Assembly: GCA_028287395.1 (NCBI GenBank)
Contig: JAQBPR010000126.1
Coordinates: 1 to 64,000 of the forward strand
Reading direction: 5' to 3'
DNA length: 64,000 nucleotides
Source of the DNA: Bacilli bacterium
GTDB taxonomy: Bacteria > Bacillota > Bacilli > Paenibacillales > NBRC-103111
The notes beneath the pieces were generated by a model. It was not told the origin of the DNA. It saw nothing but the letters and a program-made list of their open reading frames with translations, and ran no database searches. Shown piece after piece: positions 514 to 6,450 of the stretch. Made by a program: the position numbers and the translations under genes. The number at the start of each line of letters is the position of its first letter. Position 1 is the stretch's first letter.

Positions 514-1866
514 CTATTTAATTTTTTCCTCTTCCACTATCTTAGAACGCACTATTGCTTCATCCAATAATACCTGCCCTTTCATCTGAGCGTCCTGAAG
601 AGCTTCTTCAACCGACTTCTTTGATTGCATAACCTCTTGCAATTTATCATTCAGTAGGTTTGAGAAGTTAATATGGAAGCTCGTCGGTATTTTCCCAGAG
701 TAAGATAAATAGTTTTCATCAAAATTCAATTTGGCGTACGTATCCAAGGAATGTCCGTCCAATTCAGTTTGATATCCCATTCTGGATAGTAATTGGAGAG
801 AACTTTTAGATTTTAATTTGGCCATCTCATCACTGTTGATATATTGTATAAACTCCCATGCTGCATGAATATTAGCAGATTTAGAGTTAATCGCATATAT
901 ATCTACTGGATTTAATGAACTGGATAAATCTGGGCTGGCTGGATTAACCGGCTCGGTGACCATGGACCAGTTGAAGGAATTAACTTTTGCATAGTTATTG
1001 ACATCATTGATAAAAGAAAAATCGTCCACATACAACATCGCTGCTTTTCCATTAAGAAAATCATTCTTTGTCCAAGCCTCATAGGTTGCTTCATTGGATT
1101 TTAATTCCTTAATGACTTTCTTTTGGAATAGCTGTACTACAGTATTAGCAATTTGTCTCGATGGCTCCGTGTTTATTTGAACTTTCATATTCTGATCATC
1201 TATATAGGCTATTTTTTCAGTTCCTTGAACTTTATTCATCAATGAGACTGGATTAGCATTCCAAGGGAGAAAAGAAATCCCATACTCCCGGTTGTTATCA
1301 TCTCCACCTTTATTAGTAAACCGTTGGGCTAATTCGAATACTTCCCGCCAGCTCATGTTATCCTTAGGATATTCAATCTTGTACTTATCGAATAAATCAG
1401 TATTATAGAATAAAGCAGCTGAGGAATAATGAGGTGCAAGACCGTACAATTGTCCTGCCCCTTTAGCTTTGAGCAAGCTCAAAATTCCAGGATGAATCGA
1501 TTTCAAGCTGTATTTCGATTCCACAATCAATGAATCTAAATCATATAAGGCACCCTGTTTAGCCAGCATCTCGTATTGGTCTTGTCTCAATCGAAGCACA
1601 TCTGGCTTCTCCCGATCCAACCATTCTTGAAACTTAGCTTCCCTATTATCATTCTCTCCAGAAATCTGACTCATATCCACTTGCTCAACCTCGATATCAG
1701 GATACTTCAGTTGAAACAAATCTCCGTATTCCGTACGGTATGAATCTTCTCCGAAAGCCATCACCTTGATATTACCTTTTACAGGTATATGCTTAACCTG
1801 AGAGCATCCTGCTAACATTACTATAATTATCACACAGACCATAATCGTTTTGTATAGTCGATTCAC
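514..1866 (-). CDS. Extracellular solute-binding lipoprotein (family 1, sugar-type) in the cysteine-peptide operon
   Basis: A 450-residue protein with a GTG start at 1866 behind AAAGGAG. Residues 5-20 are a hydrophobic signal ending in the lipobox LAGC (Cys21), so it should be a membrane-anchored lipoprotein. The remainder has the length and layout of family 1 solute-binding proteins, including the central segment LYGLAPHYSSAALFYNTDLF and a C-terminal WEFIQYI region. Such proteins normally feed sugar importers. Here the gene lies 28 bases after an exporter-type ABC gene and is the last of five genes. No importer permeases are present, so the usual role does not fit the context. It could instead bind the exported peptide, give immunity or sense a ligand; this is inference. 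Confidence 0.8.
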   Translation of the reverse strand: MNRLYKTIMVCVIIIVMLAGCSQVKHIPVKGNIKVMAFGEDSYRTEYGDLFQLKYPDIEVEQVDMSQISGENDNREAKFQEWLDREKPDVLRLRQDQYEMLAKQGALYDLDSLIVESKYSLKSIHPGILSLLKAKGAGQLYGLAPHYSSAALFYNTDLFDKYKIEYPKDNMSWREVFELAQRFTNKGGDDNNREYGISFLPWNANPVSLMNKVQGTEKIAYIDDQNMKVQINTEPSRQIANTVVQLFQKKVIKELKSNEATYEAWTKNDFLNGKAAMLYVDDFSFINDVNNYAKVNSFNWSMVTEPVNPASPDLSSSLNPVDIYAINSKSANIHAAWEFIQYINSDEMAKLKSKSSLQLLSRMGYQTELDGHSLDTYAKLNFDENYLSYSGKIPTSFHINFSNLLNDKLQEVMQSKKSVEEALQDAQMKGQVLLDEAIVRSKIVEEEKIK

Positions 1867-1894
1867 AAACGTTCTCCTTTACTTAAAAAAATGA

Positions 1895-3718
1895 CTACTG
1901 ATACCACTCTGCCTGAATACTAAACATTCGAGCATATTCTCCATTTGATTGCATTAATTGATCATGATTGCCCTGTTCAATTAATTCGCCATTCTTTAGT
2001 ACTAGAATTCGATCCGCTGCTCTGCAAACGCCTAATCGATGCGATATAAAAAATGTTGTTTTCCCTTGGGTCAATTGGGCAATGGTTTCGAACAGCACAG
2101 CTTCAGTCATGGGATCAAGAGAGGCAGTCGGTTCGTCTAAGACAATTACTTCAGAATCACTGAAAAAAGCTCGACTAATTGCTATTTTCTGCCATTGGCC
2201 AAAAGACAACTCCTGTCCTCCCATGAATGAATATCCCAATGTAGTGTCATATCCTTGCGGCAATTGATTAATAAATTGATCTACTCCAGATATCGCGGCA
2301 GCAGATTGCAGCCGTGCATTATCATCCATATAGTCTATTTTGCCAAAACCGATATTTTCTCGCAAAGTAAGCTGATATTGTACAAAATCTTGAAAGATAG
2401 CGGTCACATGCTTTCTCATATCTTTCAGATCAATGTTCGATAAAGAAACGCCATTGTATTCAATTATACCTTCGGTTAATGGATATAGACCTAGCAAGCA
2501 TTTAACGAGCGTGCTTTTTCCAGAGCCATTCTCACCGACAATAGCTATTTTCTCACCAGCTTTGACTTCGAATGAAATATTGTTCAAAACTGTTCTCCCC
2601 GTGTTGGGATAGATGAACATAGCATTTCTGACAGTTATCTCGCTAAGTATGTTAGCTGGAAAGGGCAGTTTGTCTGATTCTTCTAATTCTTCTGATTCTT
2701 CTTCTGATTCAAGAAAGATGAACAAATCTCTTGTGTATAAGGCTTGTTCATAAATGTTTGCTAAGTAGGATGCCAGCACTTTCAGATTACCTTGGACGGT
2801 TGTTATAATTTGTACAAGAGCGATGAAATAGGATAAGCTTAATTTGCCGATTGCAGCAAGATTTAGCAGTAATCCGCTAACCAATGTAACAATAAGAAGC
2901 GTAAATCCATTAATCCCTAGCTTCAAAATTGACATTTTTCTATCCAAAGCCAGTTGTTCAATACCATTTTGTTTATAATATACCTTCCATTGATTAACAA
3001 TATAATGTGACAGACTGAAAATTCGGACTTCCTTTGCCCACTCCCGATTCGTTAACAAGCTGAAGAAATAATTCGCTCTTCGACTTGCAGGTGTTTGTCT
3101 AACAAATTGGGAAAATTGAAAGTGAGTCTCCCTTATGTTTATAAATAAAGAAGGAACAACCAATAGAAGCAAGCCCACAGCTAATGCCCAATGAAACCTC
3201 ATTAAAACAACGAAAAATCCAATCAATGTAAATGTTGACTGTATGATTTGTAAAAAAGATTGAAAAAAAAGTAATCCACGCATCTCAAAACCGGTTGATA
3301 CCCTCTGCAAGAGATCATAAAAGTCATGCTTCTCAAAGTTCAGTAAAGTAAGGCGTGAACTTTTGGTCGAGATTTCATTTCCAAAATGAAGAGTTGCATG
3401 AAGTCTAAGATTCTTGGATACATGCGTATTCAGCAGTTCTAGTATGATACCCATTAATAAAAGGCCAAATTGAAAAAGCAATATTCGATATCCAATGATT
3501 AACTCGGGTAATCCTCTAGATGCAATCAATTGTACAGCATTCATCAGTTTGAAGGTAACAAAAATTTGAACAACTGGAATGAACGATAATGAGATTTCAC
3601 ATACCGTCAGCAAGATGAAAGATAAAGGAGATAATCGAAACATGATTCCAATCATCTTAAACATCATCTGAAAGGTTAAGCTTATTTTTTGTAAAGTTTT
3701 TCGAACTGACTCTGTCAT
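1895..3718 (-). CDS. Exporter-type ABC transporter, fused membrane and ATPase domains
   Basis: A 607-residue half-transporter. The start is placed at 3718 because GAGGTAATAGG lies just before that ATG and the upstream gene ends at 3729. Residues 1 to about 330 contain about six membrane segments of type I exporter form. The ATPase domain follows, with Walker A GENGSGKST near residue 400, signature LSFGQ near 504 and Walker B VIVLDEP near 525. There is no N-terminal C39 peptidase domain, so it would not remove a double-glycine leader. It follows the thioredoxin-like gene by 10 bases and most likely exports the operon's 44-residue peptide, acting as a homodimer. Substrate assignment is inference from context. 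Confidence 0.88.
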   Translation of the reverse strand: MTESVRKTLQKISLTFQMMFKMIGIMFRLSPLSFILLTVCEISLSFIPVVQIFVTFKLMNAVQLIASRGLPELIIGYRILLFQFGLLLMGIILELLNTHVSKNLRLHATLHFGNEISTKSSRLTLLNFEKHDFYDLLQRVSTGFEMRGLLFFQSFLQIIQSTFTLIGFFVVLMRFHWALAVGLLLLVVPSLFINIRETHFQFSQFVRQTPASRRANYFFSLLTNREWAKEVRIFSLSHYIVNQWKVYYKQNGIEQLALDRKMSILKLGINGFTLLIVTLVSGLLLNLAAIGKLSLSYFIALVQIITTVQGNLKVLASYLANIYEQALYTRDLFIFLESEEESEELEESDKLPFPANILSEITVRNAMFIYPNTGRTVLNNISFEVKAGEKIAIVGENGSGKSTLVKCLLGLYPLTEGIIEYNGVSLSNIDLKDMRKHVTAIFQDFVQYQLTLRENIGFGKIDYMDDNARLQSAAAISGVDQFINQLPQGYDTTLGYSFMGGQELSFGQWQKIAISRAFFSDSEVIVLDEPTASLDPMTEAVLFETIAQLTQGKTTFFISHRLGVCRAADRILVLKNGELIEQGNHDQLMQSNGEYARMFSIQAEWYQ

Positions 3719-3728
3719 CCTATTACCT

Positions 3729-4289
3729 CTACATTGCTTTTGCAAGCTCTCTATTTTCGTTTTGTAAATGCTGTGTTAATAACTTCAACTGCTCGTTACC
3801 ATACACAGAGCCCTTTGCAACGATAATTCCCTCTCCGTTTAAAGCATAACCGAATGGAAACAATCTAGTTTGATACATGGGTATTTCCTCGGTACTAAAA
3901 GGGAGGACAGGAAGGTTCAAGTCATATTTACTAATAATTTCTAAAAAGGCTTTTTCGTTATCGGCAAACAGCTTGATGAATATTGGGATATGGGGATTTT
4001 CTAAGCTATACTGCATGAGAGGAGAGTACAAATCCTGACATGCTGAGCAACCAGCTAATGAAAATATTACTATACTACCATTGGGTGATATTAATGAAGG
4101 TACTTCACCTGTTGTAGCTCTTCTTGAGTTTTGTGGAAAGGCAATATTTTTTGACATACCTTCATCACTATTTAATAAACCAATAGGCTTACGGATATTA
4201 GCCCTATTAATAAGCATAATGAATCCAATCGCTAAATAAATTATTCCTATCCATAGAATGAAGTATGAAACAAAGAATATGTTTGACAC
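3729..4289 (-). CDS. Membrane-anchored thioredoxin-fold protein (MauD/TlpA-like)
   Basis: A 186-residue protein starting at GTG 4289, with GGAGG overlapping the 3' end of the preceding gene. Residues 7-27 form one membrane anchor. The extracellular part contains the active site CSAC at Cys81-Cys84, preceded by VIFSLAG as in TlpA and MauD. A cis-proline-type region follows near residues 125-135 (LNLPVLPF). MauD with MauE is needed to mature the disulfide-rich small subunit of methylamine dehydrogenase. Here the same pair stands beside a six-cysteine peptide and no dehydrogenase, so the likely job is to form or correct disulfides in that peptide outside the membrane. The partner assignment is inferred. 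Confidence 0.78.
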   Translation of the reverse strand: MSNIFFVSYFILWIGIIYLAIGFIMLINRANIRKPIGLLNSDEGMSKNIAFPQNSRRATTGEVPSLISPNGSIVIFSLAGCSACQDLYSPLMQYSLENPHIPIFIKLFADNEKAFLEIISKYDLNLPVLPFSTEEIPMYQTRLFPFGYALNGEGIIVAKGSVYGNEQLKLLTQHLQNENRELAKAM

Positions 4290-4294
4290 TTTAA

Positions 4295-4828
4295 TTACCT
4301 CCGTGGACTAGCGACATTGGATTGACGAAAAAACACGTTTATATAATAAACAAGCATATAAATGCCAAGTATGCCTATCCAAGACAAGATGGCGAAAGTG
4401 ATCTCCATGGCGGATAACTCCATTAAATTGCTAGATTGATTACCAACAAGCAAATACACATCTGCTAATAATATAAGCATGATGTGAGAAACGGTACTCC
4501 ACCCTAGATCTTGTGGAATTAAATGACCAAAACAATTGCATTTGACTTTCTGCTTTTGAATCATTGCCAGAAAAACGGCAATGGCAAAGCAACAAAGTAA
4601 ACCTAGCACCAGCCATTCTCCAACTAACCTCGTACCCTCCCACAATAACGCAAAGGCTGCAAACAGTTCAATGAGCGGGATAAACCTAGCACCAAATCGA
4701 CTAAGATTTTTGTGAACACCCAGTGTAAGGAGAGTACTGCGCATTGTTGCAGGAGAATATATCTTCAAAAATCCGGAAATAACGAAGATAATGACCATTC
4801 CCAGCAACAGAAATTCAGAAATATTCAT
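4295..4828 (-). CDS. MauE/DoxX-like redox-associated integral membrane protein
   Basis: A 177-residue protein with four to five membrane segments (about residues 5-22, 48-64, 70-90, 110-127, 140-165). A CNCFG motif at Cys97-Cys99 lies just after the third segment, as in MauE-family proteins, which carry a C-x-CFG site and are thought to pass electrons to or from a thioredoxin-like partner. The start at 4828 follows AGGGGG. Only five bases separate it from the MauD-like gene, whose ribosome binding site it contains, so the two are probably translated together. It would play the part that BdbB-type quinone-linked proteins play in other disulfide peptide systems. The pair MauE plus MauD is well founded; the substrate is inferred. 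Confidence 0.78.
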   Translation of the reverse strand: MNISEFLLLGMVIIFVISGFLKIYSPATMRSTLLTLGVHKNLSRFGARFIPLIELFAAFALLWEGTRLVGEWLVLGLLCCFAIAVFLAMIQKQKVKCNCFGHLIPQDLGWSTVSHIMLILLADVYLLVGNQSSNLMELSAMEITFAILSWIGILGIYMLVYYINVFFRQSNVASPRR

Positions 4829-4863
4829 GATTTACCCCCTAATAAATATGCTTTCAATTAAAT

Positions 4864-4890
4864 ATCAAGCCTCCCGAAAGGAGGCTTGAT
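4864..4890 (-). terminator. Hairpin after the peptide gene, probable partial terminator
   Basis: Perfect 11-bp arms ATCAAGCCTCC and GGAGGCTTGAT enclose a five-base loop. On the minus strand they are followed by ATTTAATT, a poor T-run. The hairpin sits between the peptide gene (ends 4909) and the MauE-like gene (starts 4828). Such leaky hairpins allow high expression of a small structural gene with lower read-through into maturation and export genes. That effect is inferred. Confidence 0.6.
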
Positions 4891-4908
4891 AAAAGACATT
4901 CATTTCAA

Positions 4909-5043
4909 TTAACAGCAGCCTAAAGGCCAGTTCGATATAGTTGACCCATTTGCACAATGATAAGTTCCTACTTTTCCAATTGGATTGCCGCCCGAACAAT
5001 TATTGTATACACAGCTTGTTGCAACTAGAGTACAATCTGTCAT
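4909..5043 (-). CDS. Six-cysteine 44-residue peptide, candidate secreted disulfide-bonded peptide or bacteriocin
   Basis: A 44-codon gene with a strong GGGGGGGG-type ribosome binding site 6 bases before ATG 5043 and its own promoter. Cysteines are at positions 4, 11, 16, 30, 43 and 44 (spacing C-x6-C-x4-C-x13-C-x12-CC). The middle contains SGGNPIGKVGTYH and the end is NWPLGCC. There is no signal peptide and no double-glycine leader that would leave the cysteines in the core, so it may be leaderless. It is the first gene of an operon with MauE-like and MauD-like redox proteins and an ABC exporter, the setting expected for a disulfide-stabilised exported peptide. I recognise no family. Bacteriocin is the leading guess; a signalling peptide or metal-binding peptide is possible. 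Confidence 0.72.
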   Translation of the reverse strand: MTDCTLVATSCVYNNCSGGNPIGKVGTYHCANGSTISNWPLGCC

Positions 5044-5084
5044 AATAATCCCCCCCCTTCTCCCTTAATGCCCTACAGTTCCTA

Positions 5085-5112
5085 ATTATAGGTTATTATT
5101 ACCATTTGTACA
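5085..5112 (-). promoter_or_regulatory. Promoter of the cysteine-peptide operon
   Basis: On the minus strand a perfect -10 TATAAT (5085-5090) lies 16 bases downstream of TGTACA (5107-5112), which matches four of six bases of the -35 consensus. Transcription would begin near 5078, about 35 bases before the start codon. No other promoter of this quality is seen before the following four genes. Confidence 0.55.
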
Positions 5113-5188
5113 TGTATATTTTATCTATTAATGTGTGCAGTATTACGCATTTGGGAATATTAGGAATATTATTAAATTTAAAATATAT

Positions 5189-5263
5189 CGAAGATAATGG
5201 CCATTTCCAGCAGCAGAAGTTCAGAAAAATTCATGATTTAACCCATAATAAATATGCTTTCAA
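5189..5263. repeat. 75-bp degenerate copy of the mauE-like gene's 5' end (original at 4783-4857)
   Basis: Positions 5189-5263 and 4783-4857 align without gaps over 75 bases with seven differences. They lie in the same orientation. The original covers the first 15 codons of the MauE-like gene, its ribosome binding site and some upstream sequence. The copy therefore is a broken piece of a second mauE-like gene. It suggests that this locus once held two tandem copies of the module, or that recombination between them removed the sequence in between. Confidence 0.85.
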
Positions 5264-5520
5264 ATCAAGGTGTTGTAAAGATTTTTGTAAAAGGAACTCA
5301 ATTGGGATCAGTGCCAGGTTTGTATTATAATAATGTTGGTATAAGTTCAACTGCCTATCAAAATCTGGATTATGTAACTGATTCTACTGGTTTGGTAATT
5401 GGAAAAATTCATTATCGTGCTTTTGATTTAAGCAGCGTGGGGACTGGAACTTTAACAACAAAAGCTACTAACTATTATTCACCTTATAACGTACTTTCAG
5501 ATTCAATTTCCATTCATTAA
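5264..5520 (+). pseudogene. C-terminal part of a secreted protein, possibly DUF4879/YolA-like, 5' truncated
   Basis: An open frame runs from the edge of the mauE-like repeat to TAA at 5520. Its only ATG (5254) lies inside the repeat and has no ribosome binding site. The protein text is rich in Tyr, Ser, Thr and Gly and ends with YYSPYNVLSDSISIH. That ending resembles, from memory, the C-terminus of DUF4879/YolA-type secreted proteins of Bacilli. A terminator follows directly, as expected for a true gene end. The front was probably replaced by the duplicated mauE fragment. Confidence 0.45.
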
Positions 5521-5532
5521 TATTCAAAAAAA

Positions 5533-5568
5533 CAAAAAAAGAGTCATACCTTATTGGCTCTTTTTTGT
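5533..5568 (+). terminator. Rho-independent terminator after the truncated secreted-protein frame
   Basis: AAAAAAGAGTCA pairs with TGGCTCTTTTTT across an eight-base loop, ending in a T-run on the plus strand. It directly follows the stop at 5520 and precedes the next plus-strand gene. Confidence 0.6.
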
Positions 5569-5659
5569 TTCCAATCATCCTTATTATGATTTTTCTTAAT
5601 TTTTCATAAGTTGATGCCGATATTATAGACTATGTAATTAAAAGTAGAAAGGGGATTTT

Positions 5660-6313
5660 ATGTTACCAATACAATCATCAATATCAGCTTATGCAAAAGT
5701 TGATCCATTGGGGAGACGAAATACACCAGATAATCTAAAGCATGCATTTCAAGAAATTTTAACTAAGCGAGAAAGTGCTCCAAATACTTCAGATAAACAG
5801 TTTCTACGTTCTTTAAATTCGGAAGAAATGGATACAATTAAAGCATACAATCATCAATCATCACGTTCAATTAACATCGATAATTTATCCGATGAGGGTG
5901 CACATAATCTCATAGCTGCTCCTGGAGATCTGAAAGATTTAAATAATGATGGTTTGGTTACTGTTGGAGAAGCAAATATGGAAGTATTCCCTCCTCCAGG
6001 ACAACCAGATGGTGTATATGTGGCATGGCTGGCATTATCACCAGAGGCTCAAAAAAACATTAGACATGAAGCGGATCTTAAGTGGACGTTAGCAAATATG
6101 GGAATGTGGGATAAAGACCTAGGAATCAATAAAAATTACAATAAAAATTATCAAACTATATTTAATCAACCCGGTGTATCATTTAGTGGTTTTGTTGATC
6201 AATTAATGACACAACGCATTCAGCAAAATAATATCGCTGCTAGTGATAACTTCCAGAATATTATGGATGATTTGACTCATTTCAAGAATGAGCTAATTAA
6301 ACACAAACTATAG
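5660..6313 (+). CDS. Protein of unknown function with one EF-hand-type calcium loop
   Basis: A 217-residue protein with a good start: GAAAGGGG lies just before ATG 5660. There is no signal peptide or membrane segment. Residues 93-104 (DLNNDGLVTVGE) match the canonical 12-residue EF-hand loop, with acidic or amide residues at positions 1, 3, 5 and Glu at 12, as also seen in dockerins. The rest is polar and mostly helical, with a Pro-rich turn FPPPGQP after the loop. Base composition is AT-rich like the neighbouring island genes. It has its own terminator. I do not recognise the family; calcium binding is the only function the sequence suggests. Confidence 0.72.
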   Translation: MLPIQSSISAYAKVDPLGRRNTPDNLKHAFQEILTKRESAPNTSDKQFLRSLNSEEMDTIKAYNHQSSRSINIDNLSDEGAHNLIAAPGDLKDLNNDGLVTVGEANMEVFPPPGQPDGVYVAWLALSPEAQKNIRHEADLKWTLANMGMWDKDLGINKNYNKNYQTIFNQPGVSFSGFVDQLMTQRIQQNNIAASDNFQNIMDDLTHFKNELIKHKL

Positions 6314-6323
6314 ACTAATTATC

Positions 6324-6354
6324 AAAAGTGGGAGGAATATTCCTGCTTTTTTTT
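6324..6354 (+). terminator. Terminator of the EF-hand-loop gene
   Basis: A hairpin with the palindromic core AGGAATATTCCT, extended by AAAAG/CTTTT pairs, is followed by a run of eight T on the plus strand. It starts about ten bases after the stop at 6313. Confidence 0.6.
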
Positions 6355-6372
6355 ACCCAAAATTATTTTTTT

Positions 6373-6450
6373 TCAATCCTCCCGATATATCCTTACCACG
6401 CACTCCACATGTGTCGTATGATGGAACATATCTACCGGTATGTCTAATCT
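6373..6450 (-). pseudogene. 3' stump of an rlmCD/rumA-type 23S rRNA methyltransferase gene
   Basis: Directly after the YuiH-type gene's stop, in the same frame, 25 codons read RLDIPVDMFHHTTHVECVVR and then IYRED, ending at TGA 6373. The text VDMFxxTxHVE(C/T)V is the hallmark C-terminus of RlmCD/RumA-type 23S rRNA uracil-5 methyltransferases. Nothing of the remaining gene of about 430 codons precedes it. The stump most likely marks where sequence was deleted or inserted next to the accessory island. Confidence 0.6.

Follow-up and report, generated by a model that had tools for sequence, protein, structure and literature searches.

What is made by a 44-codon gene with six cysteine codons that is followed by genes for a MauE-type redox protein, a thioredoxin-like protein, an ATP-binding cassette (ABC) exporter and a lipoprotein? 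The question is raised by a five-gene locus in the window analysed here, a 64,000-nucleotide stretch forming one end of an 83-kb contig (JAQBPR010000126.1) in the 4.56-Mb draft genome of a member of the Paenibacillales. On the minus strand the order is peptide gene, hairpin, mauE, tlpA/mauD-like gene, ABC exporter gene and solute-binding lipoprotein gene (Table 1). The encoded peptide, MTDCTLVATSCVYNNCSGGNPIGKVGTYHCANGSTISNWPLGCC, has 44 amino acids and six Cys residues, the first of them at position 4. We consider it probable that the product is a leaderless peptide with disulfide bonds, which the locus also oxidises and exports; a bacteriocin functionally like laterosporulin is its likeliest identity.

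Recurrence of the gene set and conservation of the small frames

A search with the peptide alone in 149 related genomes returned chance-level matches only and no close sequence relative; since this search was uninformative, relatives were reached through MauE. A MauE alignment of five rows led to 10 loci, and later searches with a MauE profile (A1) reached wider; among the genomes sampled, MauE attained an E-value of 1e-10 or better in 42 of 395 from Paenibacillales and in 18 of 399 from Bacilli. Among eleven 15-kb relative loci, those with MauE, TlpA and ABC genes hold short Cys-rich frames preceded by a near-perfect AAGGAGGT site. The three genes occur together in 51 non-redundant loci outside the window, from Paenibacillales and other Bacilli (numbered L below); the first loci supplied the MauE profile and are not independent of it, while the remaining loci are.

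Frames were counted as strict if they had 25–80 residues, at least four Cys, at least 8% Cys, an ATG start and a ribosome-binding site. Within 800 bp of the module, the 110 kb of unoccupied sequence held 55 such frames, whereas the remaining 492 kb of the same loci held 12. Because the latter figure includes coding DNA, shuffling is the fairer control, and shuffled gaps gave a mean of 0.42 strict frames. At least one strict frame was present in 42 of the 51 loci, and most of the other nine have a frame under looser criteria or a leader-bearing precursor. Over 16 peptide-gene pairs the ratio of nonsynonymous to synonymous differences (pN/pS) was 0.28, and each Cys was kept. A preliminary description of this DNA, made from its sequence alone, had reported the 44-codon gene and had named beforehand, as the check on which the idea could fail, whether related loci conserve the small frame; the frames proved to be conserved and the gene to be of a conserved, real kind. 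The MauE protein, the MauD/TlpA-like protein and the peptidase-less exporter recur as its partners, as that description had supposed.

The small frames encode leaderless peptides of 29–76 residues with 4–10 Cys and lie beside or between the module genes in most loci. The window's exact gene order, solute-binding protein (SBP) included, accompanies MAIDCRITATHCHEICNYSTGQKLRITTLYCEDGNYYSNSTCDC in Paenibacillus eucommiae (L036/L046); in P. psychroresistens (L037/L049) the gene content is unchanged, but the peptide, MIQTASSCNCYSYPCVWYGDRNGHIEICDGNSYCTCP, is encoded between TlpA and ABC. A Bacillus licheniformis plasmid (NZ_CP021671.1; L197, 5905–9052) carries MauE, TlpA, peptide and ABC genes in that order, the peptide, annotated as hypothetical, having the same Cys layout and the sequence ...DCWYIYCSTNTCGAGRQATIEYCNGPDRVPYKQHCGCGYFA. 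The TlpA and ABC frames of this plasmid are split, perhaps by sequencing errors or decay. Judged from these genomes, the module family appears to be widespread in Paenibacillus-like bacteria, to have gone unrecognised and to serve the oxidation and export of small disulfide-bonded peptides. It also offers a handle for finding peptides that annotation misses, namely MauE, TlpA and a peptidase-less ABC gene, and then a Cys-rich frame behind a ribosome site.

The window peptide and 27 others align on the pattern C-x(1-7)-C-x(3-5)-C-x(9-17)-C-x(5-19)-C-x(0-1)-C, and further subfamilies have 4, 8 or 10 Cys. The first Cys stands at or before residue 12 in 53 of 56 peptides (median, residue 4), which leaves no room for a leader; the early Cys of the window peptide agrees with its earlier description as leaderless. 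A strong hairpin lies within 75 nt after 37 of the 56 peptide genes. In tandem arrays (six copies in L144, three in L126 and two in several loci) the inner copies mostly lack a strong hairpin and the last copy has one, a pattern that fits an attenuator or terminator giving an excess of peptide over machinery. In L144 the six paralogous six-Cys genes (5400–6383) lie between tlpA and the ABC gene, with a strong hairpin after the last only. Six loci (L129, L133, L135, L136, L148 and L149) share a subfamily whose members have 66–76 residues, eight Cys and an NRF motif in the middle, and whose genes are mostly divergent to MauE-TlpA.

Relationship to the laterosporulin locus

Laterosporulin (class IId) and laterosporulin10/3 of Brevibacillus (PDB 4OZK, 6LWY and 6LWZ) are defensin-like, leaderless, Met-trimmed peptides with six Cys and three disulfides. 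Laterosporulin has been shown by experiment to be a bacteriocin from which only the Met is removed (PMC3293901). One of the loci collected here, L159, encodes a laterosporulin homologue (PDB 6LWY, E 5e-9; 4OZK, E 5e-8; NF033806 and PF17861 above cut-off), and L163–L165, from three genomes, encode laterosporulin itself or close relatives, L165 carrying the 4OZK sequence. In these three a LuxR-type regulator gene precedes an operon of genes for laterosporulin, a TlpA-like protein, an ABC protein, a second TlpA-like protein, MauE (PF07291, E 7e-22) and a small anchored protein. In the published account (PMC3293901) the region is described as encoding an ABC transporter, a dehydrogenase, a regulator and a hypothetical protein, and our literature search found no paper naming MauE together with laterosporulin. 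The preliminary description knew of no bacteriocin class with this gene set; on that point it has to be corrected, since the laterosporulin locus carries the same, unrecognised module. The earlier reading was thus partly supported, right in direction but overlooking a known relative.

The exporters tie the two kinds of locus together. In a tree of 68 sequences, the 54 peptide-locus exporters, that of laterosporulin included, formed a group apart from the 14 further exporters taken from the window's own genome (support 100/100); the long branches are two outgroup members and L155. The window exporter is sister to those of L033 and L125–L127. The window locus has the components of the laterosporulin-type module: a leaderless six-Cys small gene, a peptidase-less ABC exporter, a thioredoxin-like protein and MauE. 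The two differ in that the laterosporulin homologue of L159 has the Cys spacing C-x3-C-x16-C-x14-C-x7-C-x7-C, and in that the laterosporulin locus has two unanchored TlpA-like proteins, the order peptide-TlpA-ABC-TlpA-MauE and a module without an SBP. The window peptide is encoded in the same kind of locus as laterosporulin and very likely works as laterosporulin does. Membership of the laterosporulin family itself was rejected, as the family model was unmatched and sequence homology was lacking. The module is apparently undescribed for leaderless peptides and amounts to a broad variant around the known laterosporulin kind; laterosporulin, until now an isolated family, becomes a single branch among many leaderless disulfide peptides that share a recognisable module for maturation and export.

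This relationship may bear on an earlier difficulty. Attempts to express laterosporulin clusters in other hosts failed, for a 4-kb fragment as well as for EcoRI fragments of 6738–6750 bp (PMC6510442). In genome G266 (L163, 3011–9884) the laterosporulin EcoRI fragment measures 6873 bp, with one end inside the second tlpA gene, so that mauE is excluded; the EcoRI sites in L164 and L165 differ from those in L163. The missing mauE is a possible reason for the failure. If the published constructs share the L163 boundaries, exactly this module was missing from them.

Proposed mechanism and competing explanations

In the mechanism that we propose, a short, strongly translated transcript would yield the 44-residue peptide in excess, and the hairpin after the peptide gene would let only part of transcription into the machinery genes. 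The Met would be trimmed without removal of a leader, and the trimmed peptide would be the product. Met-Thr starts are normally trimmed, so the likely secreted form is the 43-residue des-Met peptide; a mass of about 4377 Da (43 residues minus 6 Da) is accordingly a likelier target than the 44-residue peptide minus 6 Da (4508 Da with Met) expected at first. The thioredoxin-like protein, through its CSAC motif, would oxidise or shuffle the six Cys into three disulfides, and MauE would re-oxidise it through CNCFG, roles and a direction of electron flow that the protein families suggest. The exporter, placed in its clade by the tree, would then carry the peptide out.

The presence of the five genes first described was confirmed. 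MauE, with its CNCFG motif, scores 80.1 bits against PF07291 (cut-off 27). The CxxC protein is weak by sequence and fails the MauD equivalog TIGR02661 (21.9 bits against a cut-off of 188.6), while an invariant CxxC and a PFxY cis-proline motif run through its relatives; its AlphaFold2 model has a predicted local distance difference test (pLDDT) score of 91.9 and led in Foldseek to ResA, StoA and DsbE structures (E 1e-8), so that, as modelled, it has a thioredoxin fold. No C39 domain was found in the exporter. The lipoprotein, with its LAGC lipobox, was identified as an SBP_bac_1 solute-binding protein. A related lipoprotein gene lies on the same strand inside the module or within 600 bp of it in 10 loci, the window included, and overlaps the end of the exporter gene in L037, L143 and L145; this recurrence makes it part of these operons. 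It most likely keeps the peptide off the producer's membrane, or else captures it, and this is the weakest step of the scheme: immunity by sequestration is a guess, with a receptor or scavenger role as its rival.

The formation of disulfides in methylamine dehydrogenase has been ascribed to MauE (as cited in PMC7794033). As in the maturation of that enzyme, where the disulfides of a Cys-rich subunit are attributed to MauE, the MauE family protein of the window stands next to a MauD/TlpA-like protein, but here the substrate would be a free 44-residue peptide with a dedicated ABC exporter, and the TlpA-like protein lies far below the MauD cut-off. The window locus contains no methylamine dehydrogenase genes, and the light-chain family PF02975 had no match in the window's genome, nor in the control genomes.

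Several observations weigh against the reading as an exported, disulfide-bonded bacteriocin. Experiments on these peptides are limited to laterosporulin, and the window peptide had no match to PF17861 or NF033806 at E-values up to 1, while a profile comparison of the six-Cys set with laterosporulin gave a probability of 0.1%, that is, no homology. The best of five AlphaFold2 models of the peptide, with three strands, reached a pLDDT of 84.5 (range 49.5–84.5, the other four 49–67), and a Foldseek search of 350,542 chains with it ranked laterosporulins first and second at E-values of 1.1–1.3 and a TM score of 0.34, which is not significant. We know of no biochemical work that establishes the chemistry of MauE. 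The SBP lipoprotein is missing from most loci and cannot therefore be a general immunity protein, and no gene for self-immunity was found that all loci share. Finally, charge patterns place the redox domains, with some uncertainty, on the cytosolic side, which is awkward for classical oxidation outside the cytoplasm and lends no support to a redox pair working outside the cell. Lys and Arg are more numerous after the membrane segment than before it in 44 of 45 membrane-anchored TlpA proteins (averages 3.0 and 0.16), and the MauE loop bearing CxC is also rich in them; under the positive-inside rule this points to redox chemistry at the cytosolic face. The TlpA-like proteins of laterosporulin-type loci have no membrane helix at all. 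Among the thioredoxin-like proteins with a membrane segment in the window's genome, which served as a control, one was clearly N-in and two were ambiguous, and with so mixed a control the cytosolic reading is only moderate.

These patterns would suit a relay at the cytosolic face, in which the TlpA domain and the CxC loop of MauE form the disulfides inside, on a peptide still waiting at its exporter, pass electrons into the membrane and leave the exporter to move a folded, cystine-locked peptide. We offer this tentatively, as a possibility on which we would not rely; if true, it would be a general maturation route for the superfamily, laterosporulin included. The same charge bias and the helix-free TlpA proteins of laterosporulin-type loci, both of which allow the thioredoxin domains to face the cytosol, could be read in another way, with the redox pair keeping the peptide reduced until export and the disulfides forming outside, spontaneously or by a general oxidase. 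We think this unlikely, since the role credited to MauE is disulfide formation, the cytosol is already reducing, so that a dedicated reductant would be redundant, and the charge control was mixed.

Another explanation keeps the whole machinery and changes the use of the peptide, which would act as a signal or be secreted to bind metals or surfaces, with the lipoprotein as its receptor. The lipoprotein beside the exporter in 10 loci fits capture, and many of the peptides are near neutral (median isoelectric point 7.4, median net charge +1), whereas bacteriocins are typically cationic. Against this, laterosporulin, the sole characterised peptide beside the module, is antibacterial (PMC3293901), most loci have no lipoprotein, and sequence diversity with fixed Cys and tandem arrays, such as the six copies in L144, is typical of antagonistic peptides; an explanation of this kind therefore seems improbable, and a bacteriocin is preferred. 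That the small frames are chance open reading frames in operons with another real substrate, a view to which the window frame taken alone lends itself by having neither a family match nor a close relative, is already contradicted by their twenty-fold enrichment, the shuffle control, the pN/pS value with Cys kept, the strong ribosome sites, the tandem copies and laterosporulin in the same slot, and we give it hardly any weight.

Related systems and further features of the window

The MauE-TlpA pair also occurs in other gene sets. In L098 it stands, with a related exporter, in a lasso peptide set (the cyclase Asn_synthase, PqqD and the transglutaminase-like protease Transglut_core3, checked in this locus), and L151, L152 and L156 share these lasso peptide genes, with Cys-rich precursors; sequences such as ...DCGWGTEGW..., which contain several more Cys, point to lasso peptides that bear disulfides. 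In L035 (7345–13222) a class I lanthipeptide set (Lant_dehydr N and C), whose precursor has a leader and seven Cys, includes the pair but not that exporter, and in L041–L043, again without that exporter, the pair lies beside very large, putatively multimodular genes that look like those of nonribosomal peptide synthetases. The pair thus appears to be a general accessory to natural products with disulfides, of which leaderless peptides are the majority in Bacilli. A Cys-rich protein end near MauE-TlpA in L096, from a Bacilli genome (4206–4448; ...GATCCDCTPTTN...CGCF), was considered for its likeness to an amine dehydrogenase light chain and rejected, having no Pfam match.

The decRiPPter study reported MauE, once with MauD, beside predicted precursors with at least eight Cys in three Streptomyces families (PMC7794033). 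The partnership of MauE/MauD with a small Cys-rich peptide, which the preliminary description proposed and which recurs here, had thus already been suggested; those families are a prediction only, with no exporter clade, no leaderless family and no link to laterosporulin. Actifensins of Actinomyces resemble the window peptide in having six Cys, there forming three disulfides, and in lying beside ABC genes, but they differ in their 32-residue leader, defensin-type fold and subtilisin-like protease, and PMC6989792 mentions neither MauE nor thioredoxin.

Sublancin-type glycocins encode a BdbA/BdbB thiol oxidoreductase pair with a Cys-rich bacteriocin. Sublancin, however, comes with a leader and a glycosyltransferase, and its exporter contains a peptidase; with an exporter lacking C39 and a peptide with no room for a leader, the window locus was not taken as one of this type. 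An anti-phage role was also set aside, the only PADLOC match being to the generic exporter ATPase. As for the fold of the peptide, searches with its model yielded no significant fold, a PDB sequence search with the peptide profile gave no match, laterosporulins were not among the VIA-align matches listed for the model, and matches to nudix fragments, with Z below 4, were taken as common beta arrangements.

Table 1. Features of the locus in the window (positions counted from the first nucleotide of the window)
Feature	Position	Strand	Basis
Promoter-like TGTACA-16-TATAAT	5085..5112	-	10/12 consensus positions matched
G-rich ribosome-binding site AAGGGGGGGG of the peptide gene	5050..5063	-	sequence, 6-7 nt before ATG
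Leaderless six-Cys peptide, 44 aa, C-x6-C-x4-C-x13-C-x12-CC	4909..5043	-	Cys layout common to 27 related-locus peptides
13-bp hairpin between peptide gene and mauE, terminator/attenuator-like	4863..4891	-	sequence; similar hairpins in relatives
MauE-type membrane redox protein, CNCFG	4295..4828	-	PF07291, E 2.4e-22; profile A1
Membrane-anchored thioredoxin-like (TlpA/MauD-like) protein, CSAC, cis-Pro FPFGY	3729..4289	-	conserved motifs, fold model
ABC exporter (permease-ATPase), no peptidase domain	1895..3718	-	domain search; exporter of this peptide family by tree
Solute-binding lipoprotein SBP_bac_1, LAGC lipobox; candidate immunity/capture protein	514..1866	-	domain match; relatives at module
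Truncated second copy of the mauE 5' end	5185..5268	-	88% identity over 84 nt to 4779-4862

The strong ribosome-binding site first noted for the peptide gene is present as a G-rich run, which differs from the textbook AAGGAGG. The 13-bp hairpin behind the peptide gene is an addition to the preliminary description. The promoter credited to the gene is plausible: the motif exists and is among the six best of the region. Promoter-like matches there number 24 against 21.6 in shuffles, a count at chance level that provides no evidence and leaves the assignment weak. For the ABC gene, a start at the ATG at 3718 is more likely than one at the upstream TTG at 3745.

The second mauE 5' copy is found at a distance of 406 bp from the first and upstream of the peptide gene, which is thereby placed between direct repeats, a trace of a past tandem duplication. 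Also upstream of the peptide gene, two plus-strand frames, 5660–6313 (217 aa) and 5254–5520 (88 aa), were seen that have no Pfam match.

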